Part shown: piece by piece, positions 23,845 through 26,567 of the stretch
Position numbering within the stretch: the first letter of the stretch is position 1
How the letters are laid out: each line of letters begins with the position of its first letter
Assembly (NCBI RefSeq): GCF_000308835.1
Contig: NZ_BAGN01000122.1
Span: forward strand, 62,001 to 126,000
Reading direction: 5' to 3'
Source of the DNA: Nocardia vinacea NBRC 16497
GTDB taxonomy: Bacteria > Actinomycetota > Actinomycetes > Mycobacteriales > Mycobacteriaceae
Length of the DNA: 64,000 nt
Notes under the pieces: generated by a model
Database searches by the model: none
Told to the model about the DNA's origin: nothing
Seen by the model: the letters and a program-made list of their open reading frames with translations, nothing else
Translations under genes and position numbers: made by a program

Positions 23845-24999
23845 TCAGCCGGTGCCCTTGATGAATCTCGGGTGCCGGCACGGTATCCGGGTGGCCAAGC
23901 GCCACAGGGAGGTCACTTCCGCGGCTCGGGCTGCGTGCAACGGGTCTGTGGTGTCGCTGGGTCGGGAGTGGTGGGGGCGGGTGTCGATCCGGTCGATGAT
24001 GTGCAGGCCTGCCGCGTCGATGGCGGTGAGGAGTTCGGTGCGGGTGCGCAGGCCGAGGCGTTCGGCCAGATCGGATAGGACCAGCCAGCCCTCGCCGCCG
24101 GGTTCGAGGTGAGTGGGCAGGTCGGTCAGGAAGGCGTGCAGCATGGAGCTGTCCGGGTCGTAGACGCCTTGTTCGATGGTGGAAGTCGGACGGACCGGGA
24201 GCCACGGCGGGTTGCAGACGATCAGGTGTGCGAGCCCGTCGGGGTACAGACCGGGACCTTGGACATCGATGCGGGTCGTGAGCCCGAGGCGGTCGATATT
24301 GTCGCGGGCGCAGTCGAGTGCGCGCGGATTGATATCGGTGGCGACGATGTGGTCGACGCCGCGGCGAGCCAGCACCGCCGCGAGCACGCCGGTTCCGGTT
24401 CCGAGGTCGAATGCGGTGCGGTGCTGGACCGGAAGCGGCGCCTCGGCAACCAGATCGACGTATTCGCCGCGCACGGGAGAGAACACCCCGTAGTGCGGGT
24501 GGATGCGCGCGCCGAGGGCCGGAACCAGGACACCGTTTTCGCGCCACTCGTGTGCCCCGATCGCTCCGAGTAGTTCGGTCAAGGCGATCACCATCGGCTC
24601 ATGCGCGGATCCATATACCTCGGTGCACGCCTGTCGAACATCGGGGGCGCGGCGCAATGCCAGGGAGTGGTCCGGCTCCAATTGCACGATCAGCCTGCCC
24701 AACACCCGTGCCCGCTGCCCACGAGCCCGCCGATAGAGGTGGAAGGATTCGGCCGGTCCATCGCCCGCCGGTACGGGTTTGCGATCGATGCGGCGGCTCA
24801 GTGCTCGCAACAGCTGACGCGCGTTGTGGAAGTCGCCGCGCCACAGCAGCGCCGTCCCCTGGCAGGCCAGGCGGTAGGCGGTATCGGCACGCATGCGGTC
24901 ATCGGCGACGGTGACTTGCGCGGGCGCTGCCGCCGCGCTTTCGGAATGCCACTGTGCGCTGTGGTCGGTATCTGCTTCGGTCCAGTGAATGGTCGACAT
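23845..24999 (-). CDS. Class I SAM-dependent methyltransferase with NPPW motif
   Basis: 384 residues from the ATG at 24999. N-terminal helical part (about 30-190: YRLACQGTALLWRGDFHNAR) precedes the Rossmann domain: FDLGTGTGVLAAVLARRGVD (SAM motif I), HIVATDINPRALDCARDNI (acidic ribose-binding residue) and LIVCNPPWLPVRP. The (N/D)PPY/W motif marks methyltransferases that act on a planar nitrogen, such as Gln/Asn of proteins (HemK type) or adenine/guanine in nucleic acids. The target is unknown; rRNA or a translation factor would fit the leader-peptide control seen upstream. Its Shine-Dalgarno (GAGGAG, 25006-25011 on the plus-strand count) lies in an RNA stem, see the attenuator entry. Confidence 0.87.
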   Translation of the reverse strand: MSTIHWTEADTDHSAQWHSESAAAAPAQVTVADDRMRADTAYRLACQGTALLWRGDFHNARQLLRALSRRIDRKPVPAGDGPAESFHLYRRARGQRARVLGRLIVQLEPDHSLALRRAPDVRQACTEVYGSAHEPMVIALTELLGAIGAHEWRENGVLVPALGARIHPHYGVFSPVRGEYVDLVAEAPLPVQHRTAFDLGTGTGVLAAVLARRGVDHIVATDINPRALDCARDNIDRLGLTTRIDVQGPGLYPDGLAHLIVCNPPWLPVRPTSTIEQGVYDPDSSMLHAFLTDLPTHLEPGGEGWLVLSDLAERLGLRTRTELLTAIDAAGLHIIDRIDTRPHHSRPSDTTDPLHAARAAEVTSLWRLATRIPCRHPRFIKGTG

Positions 25000-25004
25000 G
25001 GGGT

Positions 25005-25055
25005 GCTCCTCGTGATCGGACGTGCGTTGGCACGGCGAGCACTTCGACGAGGAGC
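25005..25055 (-). promoter_or_regulatory. Candidate translational attenuator hiding the methyltransferase SD
   Basis: In the transcript, GCTCCTCGT (from 25055 to 25047) is followed by ACGAGGAGC (from 25013 to 25005), a perfect 9-bp helix that buries the GAGGAG Shine-Dalgarno 6 bases before the ATG at 24999. The loop contains its own hairpin CGTGC-CAAC-GCACG (25034 to 25021). Two alternative partners lie in the upstream leader ORF: CGCTTCGACG (25116-25107) can pair with CGTCGAAGTG (25049-25040), and CGGCGACTTCG (25134-25124) can pair with CGAAGT-gct-CGCCG (25046-25033). Both would weaken the helix that hides the SD. This layout is that of ribosome-controlled attenuation. Confidence 0.6.
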
Positions 25056-25094
25056 GGGAGAACGGCCTGATTCAGCCGAGGCTGTAAGGACGGA

Positions 25095-25154
25095 CTAGCG
25101 GTTCCGCGTCGAAGCGCGAGCACCGAAGTCGCCGAGGACCATACCGAGCGTCAT
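25095..25154 (-). CDS. 19-residue leader peptide upstream of methyltransferase
   Basis: ATG at 25154 reading MTLGMVLGDFGARASTRNR, then TAG. A fair Shine-Dalgarno, GGGAAGGGG, lies 6 to 7 bases upstream. The ORF ends 95 bases before the methyltransferase ATG, and its codons 7-11 and 13-16 contain the segments that can pair with the anti-SD region. Too short to recognise by homology, and no peptide function is claimed; its position and pairing argue for a regulatory role through ribosome occupancy or stalling. Confidence 0.55.
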   Translation of the reverse strand: MTLGMVLGDFGARASTRNR

Positions 25155-25297
25155 GAGCAGCCCCTTCCCTGAGTCGACACCTCAAGACTCGCACATGGGC
25201 AGCCGCCACCACGCGCCGGGTCCGAATGCGAGGTATCCCGCCGCAAGCCCCGATCGGTACCGGTGGTGGAAACCTCCATCACCGACCGACGAACAGG

Positions 25298-25374
25298 GTT
25301 GCTGTCGCATACCCAGTGACAACCTCGCACACTCATAGCTTGTGCGAGGCACTGAATGGTTGTGCGACAGCAAC
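25298..25374. repeat. 77-bp palindrome with two nested perfect stems
   Basis: Outer arms GTTGCTGTCGCA (25298-25309) and TGCGACAGCAAC (25363-25374); inner arms CCTCGCACA (25323-25331) and TGTGCGAGG (25341-25349); loop of 9. Both dyads share the same centre at 25336. The stretches between the stems are partly complementary with an indel. It follows the lipase stop (25392, minus strand) by 17 bases and precedes the methyltransferase leader, so it may be the lipase terminator; no T run. It could also be a REP- or MITE-like element. Confidence 0.7.
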
Positions 25375-25391
25375 TCCGAGACGGCCGATGC

Positions 25392-26567
25392 TCAGGCGAC
25401 GCCCATCCAGGTGTCGATCCGGTCGATTGCCCCGGGTGTGAACGCGCAGGTGATGTGGTCGCACGGCAGTAGAGTCAGTGACACGTCAACGCCGGCGCTT
25501 TTCCACTGTTGCTGGAGTGCTTGCGCGCCTGCGGCGGGAATCCATTCGTCGAAGAGGCCGTGCCACAGGTAGATCGGCATCGTCGGGGTCAGTCCGCCGG
25601 CCTTGGTTTCGCGGTAGATCCGCTGGACGACCTCGGTCGGGTACGGGTCGACTTTGGTCAGCGTGCGCACCGCCACCGGCGCGGCGCCGAGGAGGGCGGC
25701 GTTGGAGCAGAGGTTCTTGCTCTCCTGGGCGGTCCGCACCCCGACGTCGTTGAGCAGGTCGAAGGCTTCGGGCGTGGCTCGGGCCACCCCGAGCGCCGCC
25801 ATCAGATACAGCGCCGCGGCGGGCGGTTTCCCGTCCATCGTTTTGCGCAGCAGGCTCAGGTCGGCGGGTGTGCCACCGGCGGCGGCGCCGAGGATCCGCA
25901 GTTCGGGGGCGTATGTGGGCTGCAGCTGTGCGGCCCATACGGTGGCGATCGCGCCGCCGCTGTAGCCGATCATCGTGGCGGGGCTGCCGGCCAGTCCGGC
26001 TGCCGGAAACTGTAGTGCGGCACGGATTCCGTCGAGCACTTCGCGAGCCTGGGTGGGTCCGTGTGCGTAGGCCATCTTGGGGCCTTGGTAGTCGGTCATC
26101 ACGACCGCGTAACCGTGCCCGAGCAGTTGGCGGGTGATATCGGGCGCCTCGATGGAGACCGAGTGGGTCAGTTGGTAGGACGGATTGCATTGGAGCCCGA
26201 CGCTGTCGATCGCGTAGTTATTGCTGACGACGCGCCCGTTCCATGTCTTCGGTTTCATGATCGTGGTGATCGCCGCGATCGAAGTGCCGTCGGTGGCAGT
26301 GGATTTGAACCACACCTGCCAGGCGGCGAAGTCGTTGGTGGCGGCCAGCGGCGGCAGAATCTGCACCGATCGCGACGACAGGATCGCACCGTTGGGCAGA
26401 CCGTCGGTATTGAAATGCTGATCGAGGTAGGCGTCGCCGGTCGGGTCGGGATCGAATTTCGCGTAGTCACCGCTGTCGGCCGCGACCAGGGGCGAGGCCG
26501 CGAACATGGTGAGCGCCAGGGTGGTCGCGACGGAGAGGGCGCGCCACGGCAGCCGAAACATGAACAA
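25392..26567 (-). CDS. Secreted lipase family protein
   Basis: 391 residues with a Sec signal (RALSVATTLALTMFAASPLVAA, cut near residue 30). Alpha/beta hydrolase of the secretory lipase (LIP) family: nucleophile elbow MIGYSGGAIA with Ser203, oxyanion region HGYAVVMTDYQGP, late Asp in LWHGLFDEWIP and His in LPCDHITCAFTPG. Nocardia and mycobacteria have several of these, used on triacylglycerols and other esters outside the cell. Start at 26567 (MFMFRL); an ATG two codons later is possible. Divergent from the dienelactone hydrolase gene. Confidence 0.92.
   Translation of the reverse strand: MFMFRLPWRALSVATTLALTMFAASPLVAADSGDYAKFDPDPTGDAYLDQHFNTDGLPNGAILSSRSVQILPPLAATNDFAAWQVWFKSTATDGTSIAAITTIMKPKTWNGRVVSNNYAIDSVGLQCNPSYQLTHSVSIEAPDITRQLLGHGYAVVMTDYQGPKMAYAHGPTQAREVLDGIRAALQFPAAGLAGSPATMIGYSGGAIATVWAAQLQPTYAPELRILGAAAGGTPADLSLLRKTMDGKPPAAALYLMAALGVARATPEAFDLLNDVGVRTAQESKNLCSNAALLGAAPVAVRTLTKVDPYPTEVVQRIYRETKAGGLTPTMPIYLWHGLFDEWIPAAGAQALQQQWKSAGVDVSLTLLPCDHITCAFTPGAIDRIDTWMGVA

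Follow-up and report, generated by a model that had tools for sequence, protein, structure and literature searches.

A conserved leader peptide core and a candidate ribosome-controlled translational attenuator upstream of a non-Erm methyltransferase gene in Nocardia and other actinobacteria

The methyltransferase gene at positions 24999..23845 (minus strand) of the window, that is the entire stretch of 64,000 nucleotides from Nocardia vinacea NBRC 16497 analyzed here, encodes a class I SAM-dependent enzyme of 384 amino acids with an MTS domain and an NPPW motif. We conclude that expression of this gene is in all likelihood governed by a ribosome-controlled translational attenuator, in which a ribosome inhibitor would probably cause stalling on the conserved core of a short leader peptide and the product of which probably methylates rRNA. 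Comparison of homologous loci lends good support to the attenuator.

According to the proposed mechanism, segments 1 and 2 as well as segments 3 and 4 of the leader RNA would be paired at rest, such that the Shine-Dalgarno (SD) sequence of the methyltransferase gene would be hidden. A ribosome stalled while making G-M-V-[L/V]-[G/W]-D would cover segment 1, segment 2 would then pair with segment 3 and the SD sequence would be freed. A ribosome reaching the leader stop codon would cover segments 1 and 2 and the SD sequence would remain closed. The stall is most likely brought about by a ribosome-targeting inhibitor acting together with the nascent peptide, and the enzyme most likely methylates ribosomal RNA, which would bring both stall and inhibition to an end.

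Results

Leader ORF and RNA helices in the window

All features of the control region lie on the minus strand. As put forward in the first-pass annotation, a 19-codon leader ORF with its own SD sequence precedes the methyltransferase gene: the ORF, MTLGMVLGDFGARASTRNR followed by a stop codon, occupies 25154..25095 (ATG at 25154, stop at 25097..25095), and its purine-rich SD sequence AGGGAAGGGG is found at 25170..25161. An AGG/GGA core is common before the leaders of relatives and is present ahead of 75 of 86 distinct leader starts, compared to 27% of 721 other ATG/GTG codons. Judged from sequence evidence alone, the short ORF appears to be translated. The codons for G-M-V-L-G-D, the proposed stall signal, span 25128..25145.

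An extended -10-like element, TGTGCGAGTCT (25185..25195), is tentatively placed 5' of the leader. It conforms to a loose TGnGANNYT-like pattern that is encountered upstream of 69 of 104 leaders, a figure given without a chance level, and a scan of the window for sigma-70 promoters gave no match. Of the genes nearest to the methyltransferase gene on its flanks, one codes for a lipase and the other for an AMP-binding enzyme. An inverted repeat, large and imperfect, lies at 25298-25374 in the interval that separates the leader from the lipase gene (GTTGCTGTCGCA ... TGCGACAGCAAC); a similar stretch occurs as one further copy in the genome (contig C422), and the repeat is possibly a small mobile element.

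The SD sequence of the methyltransferase gene, GAGGAG (25011..25006), is contained in segment 4, ACGAGGAGC (25013..25005). The claim that it resides in a perfect 9-bp stem is exact, the anti-SD arm of this stem (H3) being GCTCCTCGT (25055..25047). A helix is also nested in the loop; it consists of four contiguous pairs, GTGC (25042..25039) with GCAC (25025..25022), and not of the five originally assigned. The leader hairpin H1 is formed by segment 1 as its 5' arm (25115..25125) and by a 3' arm that is part of segment 2 (25099..25108). Pairing of leader codons 13-16, likewise noted at the outset, comprises 11 bp between segment 2, GCGCTTCGACG (25117..25107), and segment 3, CGTCGAAGTGC (25049..25039), which form the 5' and 3' strands of the alternative helix; segment 3 also includes part of the anti-SD strand. 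In pair counts on relatives, which were also made for the arms of H1 and H3, this proved to be the best kept helix of the system. A further pairing attributed to codons 7-11 is present in the predicted fold of the window with CGCCGTGCC as the partner, but this partner is altered in most relatives: it is identical in L005 and changed in L004 and most other rows of the alignment.

The window does not stand out by its folding energy (z = -1.29, a value reached by 18 of 200 shuffles), whereas the Streptomyces homologue L023 does (z = -4.07, reached by 1 of 200). Taken alone, the window thus offers weak folding evidence and the case rests on comparison with relatives; it is because of its conservation there, not because of its own folding energy, that we regard the element as more than chance.

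A middle hairpin, H2, bears on the possibility that control is exerted by transcription attenuation, in which a hairpin halts RNA polymerase and leader translation prevents the halt. H2 is strong in Streptomyces, and steps of this kind are described for a Streptomyces ARE5 gene and for B. subtilis yxjB (PMC12421871, PMC6851288). However, H2 is absent from the predicted fold of the window and no helix is less well kept than its outer part (68% of cells paired, 92% in the inner part), whereas the pairing with the SD sequence is kept. Furthermore, a scan for T-run terminators, the type that it covered, found none over 24950-25400 of the window, which includes the interval between leader and gene. 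We therefore consider transcription attenuation improbable.

Occurrence of the leader before the gene

A genome scan by species with the protein as query yielded 47 homologous loci, 38 of which carry an in-frame leader before the gene. Conservation of the leader ORF, a check proposed together with the original claim, is thereby borne out. The nine loci without an in-frame leader are L009, L025, L039, L040, L042, L045, L047, L049 and L050. The gene is present at E<=1e-40 in 25 of 394 sampled genomes of the class, and a leader of this type precedes it in ten of these when the GLVLGR variant of genome G330 is counted. Among 118 sampled Nocardia genomes 69 contain the gene; reading of their upstream regions revealed a GMV-core leader in 49 and a G[QR]VVG variant in a further three. 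In a second and a third family the gene was found in 33 of 150 and six of 80 genomes, respectively. Altogether, 158 distinct upstream regions, a count that left out three loci without a usable gene start, comprise 104 with and 54 without the core. The arrangement of leader and gene is not specific for Nocardia; it also occurs in many Streptomyces and their relatives.

A model of the element, searched at E<=0.001 and with strict filters that miss weak copies, gave ten matches, one of them in the window, among the 394 class genomes. Nine lie ahead of this gene, and the tenth has no adjoining enzyme homologue. In a sample of 198 genomes from the phylum, three weak matches (E 0.0015-0.007) appeared besides the window and genome G031; no enzyme homologue adjoins them and they are taken as chance. 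No family of Rfam 15 covers the element, the one match being below the gathering score and outside the element. A description of this leader was not recognized in the literature searched, nor were the strings GMVLGD, MTLGMVL, LGMVVWD and GMVVWD found there; subscription journals are thinly covered by this literature, so that the negative is a weak one. What comparison across the loci brings out is a leader ORF with its peptide core, competing helices and a link of these to one gene.

Some leaders look decayed when read by eye. That of L042 (1954-2096) has an early stop and is distant from the gene, the core of L122 is shorter by one codon, and in L159 and L169 the core is altered to TFGTTLGD or LDTALGD. 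These cases suggest that control was lost repeatedly. The Nocardia homologues L025, the upstream sequence of which is the same as that of L135, and L067 lack the GMV core and contain another possible short ORF starting with MGI; L025 retains the SD stem CTCGTCG / CGACGAGGAG. In two genomes of another family (L083, L084), the enzyme gene is preceded by a different mini-ORF, MTMDRLR or MTTHRFR, each directly followed by a stop codon that overlaps a possible gene start. The peptides end in R-X-R, a motif reported for ketolide/macrolide stalling (PMC8298421, PMC6851288). Such a mini-ORF was not seen by eye in four other homologues of this family, L090-L093.

The peptide core

The consensus of the leader peptide core is G-M-V-[L/V]-[G/W]-D. 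Among 86 distinct leader ORFs, collected by a search that demanded a core-like match and therefore renders the core G invariant by construction and somewhat flatters the figures for the other residues, M is kept in 81, V in 85 and D in 81, and the [G/W] position holds Gly in 71 and Trp, the Streptomyces form, in 14. Synonymous variation is unaffected by the search: third-position diversity reaches 0.59 for V, 0.65 for G/W and 0.40 for D, and V and G are each specified by four codons, D by two and L by five, with the amino acids nearly fixed. The codon following the core is nearly free (amino-acid diversity 0.86). Prefixes, as defined from the nearest in-frame start, differ (M, ML, MTL, MTPL, MSFPPP, MTRATVP), tails diverge strongly (YPRTSARV, VSSRTSTR, HAAALRA, RCPRFDAGAAARR, RRPRASLRGVCCPVRTSASG) and lengths range from 14 residues upward; the Streptomyces leader peptide reads MLGMVVWDVRSRASTRER. 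Amino-acid conservation is strong in the core only, and the rest of the leader overlaps paired RNA. At L060/L069, in one genome, the core is retained although the usual leader hairpin is lost.

This conservation of the peptide core favours a nascent-chain stall over attenuation by amino-acid or codon starvation, with the leader gauging a charged tRNA. Amino-acid attenuation had been named as an alternative in the first-pass annotation, and it would employ the same RNA layout and find a Trp codon in the core of the Streptomyces form. Yet neither a run of one codon nor any repeated codon is present, the Trp of Streptomyces is Gly in most other leaders, synonymous codons differ and the product is not a biosynthetic enzyme. 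The claim is accordingly abandoned, and we regard starvation attenuation as extremely unlikely.

Covariation and pairing across relatives

In 39 aligned sequences, 89.1% of cells are paired in the resting structure and 98.6% of 429 cells in the alternative helix between leader and anti-SD strand. The lone compensatory cell of the latter in this set, U-A to G-C in L033, alters the leader amino acid as well. A larger count covered 99 sequences, the leader and SD blocks of which were aligned independently of each other; it was designed after the result of an earlier anchored alignment was known, and its shuffle tests ignore the kinship of the sequences. On this basis, pairing in the alternative helix reaches 94.5% of cells versus 92.1% after shuffling (0/1000), and the helix exhibits 16 double changes versus 2.2 (0/1000), distributed over six pairs versus 1.9 (2/1000). 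The SD stem H3 is paired in 85.9% versus 84.5% (0/1000) with 30 double changes versus 9.0 (0/1000), and the leader hairpin H1 in 75.9% versus 74.5% (23/1000) with 58 double changes versus 22.7 (0/1000). The number of pairs with double changes is not above that in the shuffles for H1 (803/1000) and H3 (562/1000). Compensatory changes in the stems, which had been suggested as a test, are thus present.

The earlier anchored alignment gave no clear signal for the alternative helix (percent paired 115/2000, double changes 1245/2000, pairs with double changes 135/2000). It comprised 80 rows, 66 of them distinct, and missed 24 of 104; rows changed in the invariant motif were dropped because the anchor demanded that motif.

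Pairing was also assessed by comparing own with mismatched duplexes in two sets of 37 and 29 representatives of 89, from which similar rows were filtered out, a step that does not fully remove kinship. Own leader:anti-SD duplexes bind better than mismatched ones, both by energy (0/10000) and by longest helix (0 and 10/10000), and so do own anti-SD:SD duplexes (energy 1 and 0/10000, longest helix 2 and 0). In the leader:SD control the difference is far less marked (energy 481 and 928/10000, longest helix 829 and 698). The segments used here were shorter and avoid the overlap that occurred in some rows of a first version of the test with 25 representatives (0 and 5/10000). The combined data point to an SD sequence sequestered at rest and to an alternative leader:anti-SD helix. 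In-frame leaders in relatives and compensatory changes in the stems are what the erm-type attenuation logic claimed at the outset would entail.

Predicted opening of the SD sequence

Accessibility of the SD sequence was computed for 98 sequences by placing a ribosome at each leader codon and truncating the RNA at its front edge (+16). The mean predicted opening is 0.12 in free RNA and 0.13-0.16 while the ribosome is on early codons. It reaches its highest values, 0.25 and 0.22, when the P site precedes D by one or two codons, and amounts to 0.07-0.10 from D onward. At 0.25, the mean peak is modest. Compared with the mean of the late positions, the better of the two peak positions is more open in 72 sequences and less open in six, a count that favours the reading since it sets the better of two positions against the mean of seven; compared with free RNA, 63 of the 98 are more open and seven less. 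Front edges of +14 and +15 leave the peak position unchanged and +17 shifts it by one codon to an earlier position (33 of the 98 sequences).

The response differs between leader types. Streptomyces-type leaders (n=23) exhibit a sharp peak of 0.25 and 0.35 versus <=0.10 elsewhere, and in L023 predicted opening rises from 0.00 to 0.58-0.70 and falls back again. Long MGMVLGD leaders (n=13) remain open for a few codons past the core, MSFPPP-type leaders (n=4) have hardly any peak and RTSARx-type leaders (n=13) none. In the responding types, the ribosome position predicted to open the SD sequence coincides with the conserved peptide position; in these types the SD sequence is thus predicted to open while a ribosome occupies the core. 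The window behaves in the opposite way in the model (0.46 open in free RNA, 0.05-0.06 with a ribosome in the core), and the mechanism in this strain is therefore inferred from its relatives.

The behaviour at late codons is also relevant to the idea that leader and gene are simply coupled in translation or that the leader encodes a functional small protein. The two reading frames are close and on one strand, and the peptide is conserved. In the model, however, segments 3 and 4 remain paired with the ribosome at late leader codons, and neither conservation confined to the core nor the variable length of the leader fits this idea, which we consider very unlikely.

The methyltransferase

The enzyme contains the methyltransferase small domain PF05175 (46 bits). 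It matches seven Pfam families at E<=0.001, none of them of the Erm/KsgA kind, and 17 NCBIfam families including HemK/PrmA-like ones, none above its cut-off and none Erm. Neither collection thus places it in the Erm family of 23S rRNA A2058 methyltransferases. Assignment as a PrmC/HemK release-factor methyltransferase was rejected, with an equivalog score of 49.9 bits versus a cut-off of 199.1. A match to the MADS defence methyltransferase Mad2 (E 1.6e-17) is confined to residues 176-327.

A structure of good quality was predicted (mean pLDDT 84.4, pTM 0.81). Its best and longest match in the PDB is chain FE of the Trypanosoma brucei mitoribosomal small-subunit assemblosome (Z 26.3, 336 residues, rmsd 3.5, 16-17% identity). 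Among the matches listed, chain F4 (Z 20.5, 312 residues) is the only other one to span the greater part of the enzyme; the remaining ones, among them PrmC, RsmC and RlmG, concern mainly the catalytic domain at Z about 18-21, with values of 18.9 for RsmC/RlmG entry 2pjd and 18.8 for 4dcm over 175-176 aligned residues. When solved structures were searched by sequence, all matches were confined to the catalytic part. In preprint PMC11785013, chains F5, FA and FB are named mt-SAF5, mt-SAF10 and mt-SAF11, respectively, and mt-SAF14 is assigned to Mettl15, a small-subunit rRNA methyltransferase. Extrapolating from this chain naming, we infer that chain FE is mt-SAF14. Because of the structural matches and the ribosome-controlled leader, rRNA is a plausible substrate and our best guess.

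Spread of leader and enzyme

A tree of 117 enzymes, calculated by a quick method that leaves 36 of 114 inner branches unresolved, requires 13 gains or losses of the leader versus 35.2 after shuffling (0/500 as low). One supported part of the tree with 86 rows contains 69 of the 74 leader-bearing rows. Nocardia, Streptomyces and Streptosporangiaceae are intermingled, and the nearest rows to the window enzyme outside Nocardia stem from Streptomyces macrolidinus and Microtetraspora fusca. This suggests a cassette of leader and enzyme that moves between genera.

Gene neighbourhoods were compared over 47 loci, with inspection of the 12 neighbour clusters present at the most loci, and gave no clue to function: among loci with the leader, common neighbours are confined to pairs of close relatives (L004/L005, L007/L008) and to small groups of a chance-like kind. 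The rpmF gene that adjoins the enzyme gene on a Streptomyces plasmid was encountered again at a single locus of the 47 (L022). A leaderless Streptomyces subfamily (L039, L040, L047, L049) has more neighbouring genes in common. Homologues of the enzyme outside the actinobacteria were encountered in a plasmid collection (H9, H10, H11); one on an Aquabacterium olei plasmid is 59% identical, and the model search detected no leader with it; two Neisseria gonorrhoeae records are 46% identical with a match in three pieces.

The same switch could also be operated by an intrinsic arrest peptide that senses ribosome methylation, with unmethylated ribosomes stalling and more enzyme being made, so that an antibiotic would be unnecessary. 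A strict core with variable third positions and the link to one gene are in keeping with such a peptide, and a self-limiting loop has a precedent, albeit a drug-dependent one, in B. subtilis yxjB/tlrB (PMC6851288). On the other hand, the patchy distribution and the mixing of genera in the tree suit a resistance gene better than a housekeeping function, and many homologues of the enzyme lack the leader. Induction without a drug is therefore rather unlikely in our opinion, and stalling by an inhibitor is preferred.

Discussion

It is conceivable, and put forward here as a tentative proposal that may well prove wrong, that GMV[LV][GW]D constitutes a novel class of signal for nascent-chain stalling, responds to an unsuspected inhibitor and controls a family of inducible methyltransferases that is new, has spread horizontally and acts on rRNA (perhaps that of the small subunit), and with it an unrecognized intrinsic resistance in actinobacteria. 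If the attenuator operates as proposed, an erm-like switch would act on a non-Erm methyltransferase in the 69 gene-bearing Nocardia genomes sampled, 49 of them with the core, and in many Streptomyces and related organisms. The conserved core could then be used as a probe, and a compound found to cause the stall would be a candidate for the agent that the enzyme guards against. This would open both the function of an orphan enzyme and a possibly overlooked intrinsic resistance of actinobacteria to testing.

The system is erm-like in its working and outside the Erm family, and its peptide signal and enzyme are absent from the literature searched. With HemK/PrmC, RsmC, RlmG and the methyltransferases of kinetoplastid mitoribosomal small-subunit assembly, the enzyme shares the fold of the catalytic domain and, in the case of chain FE, a match over nearly the full length, but identity to the latter is low and the NCBIfam scores stay far under the cut-off.

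The uORFs of Streptomyces WblC/WhiB7 and ARE5-ABCF genes resemble the leader in being drug-responsive and in occurring in similar organisms. According to PMC7157823 and PMC12421871, the ARE5 uORFs are short with a stall at the start codon, transcription attenuation is reported for wblC and are5sc, and a transcription reporter of tiaA is constitutive. Membership in the WblC/WhiB7 regulon was tried and rejected: GAAAWY, given as the WblC box just upstream of -35 in PMC7157823, occurs 20-110 nt upstream of three of 102 leaders, with 1.3 expected. B. subtilis yxjB (RlmA-II, tlrB) likewise combines a leader peptide and an SD-sequestering hairpin with a non-Erm rRNA methyltransferase; its peptide carries an RYR stall motif at the C-terminal end, and control also involves a terminator and pausing of RNA polymerase (PMC6851288). 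The system described here differs from it by the lack of an RXR motif in the core and of a T-run terminator in the stretch scanned.

The erm translational attenuators follow a four-segment pairing scheme. As with the ermC and ermB leaders, a leader ORF precedes a methyltransferase gene located 3' of it, and the SD sequence would be hidden at rest and freed by a stall on the leader. The differences lie in the enzyme, which is non-Erm by Pfam and NCBIfam, and in the distinct peptide core. The closest precedent for the stall itself is ErmBL: according to PMC8274638, its stall codon specifies Asp, and it is the identity of the amino acid, not that of the codon, that determines the stall; an Asp is likewise part of the core described here.
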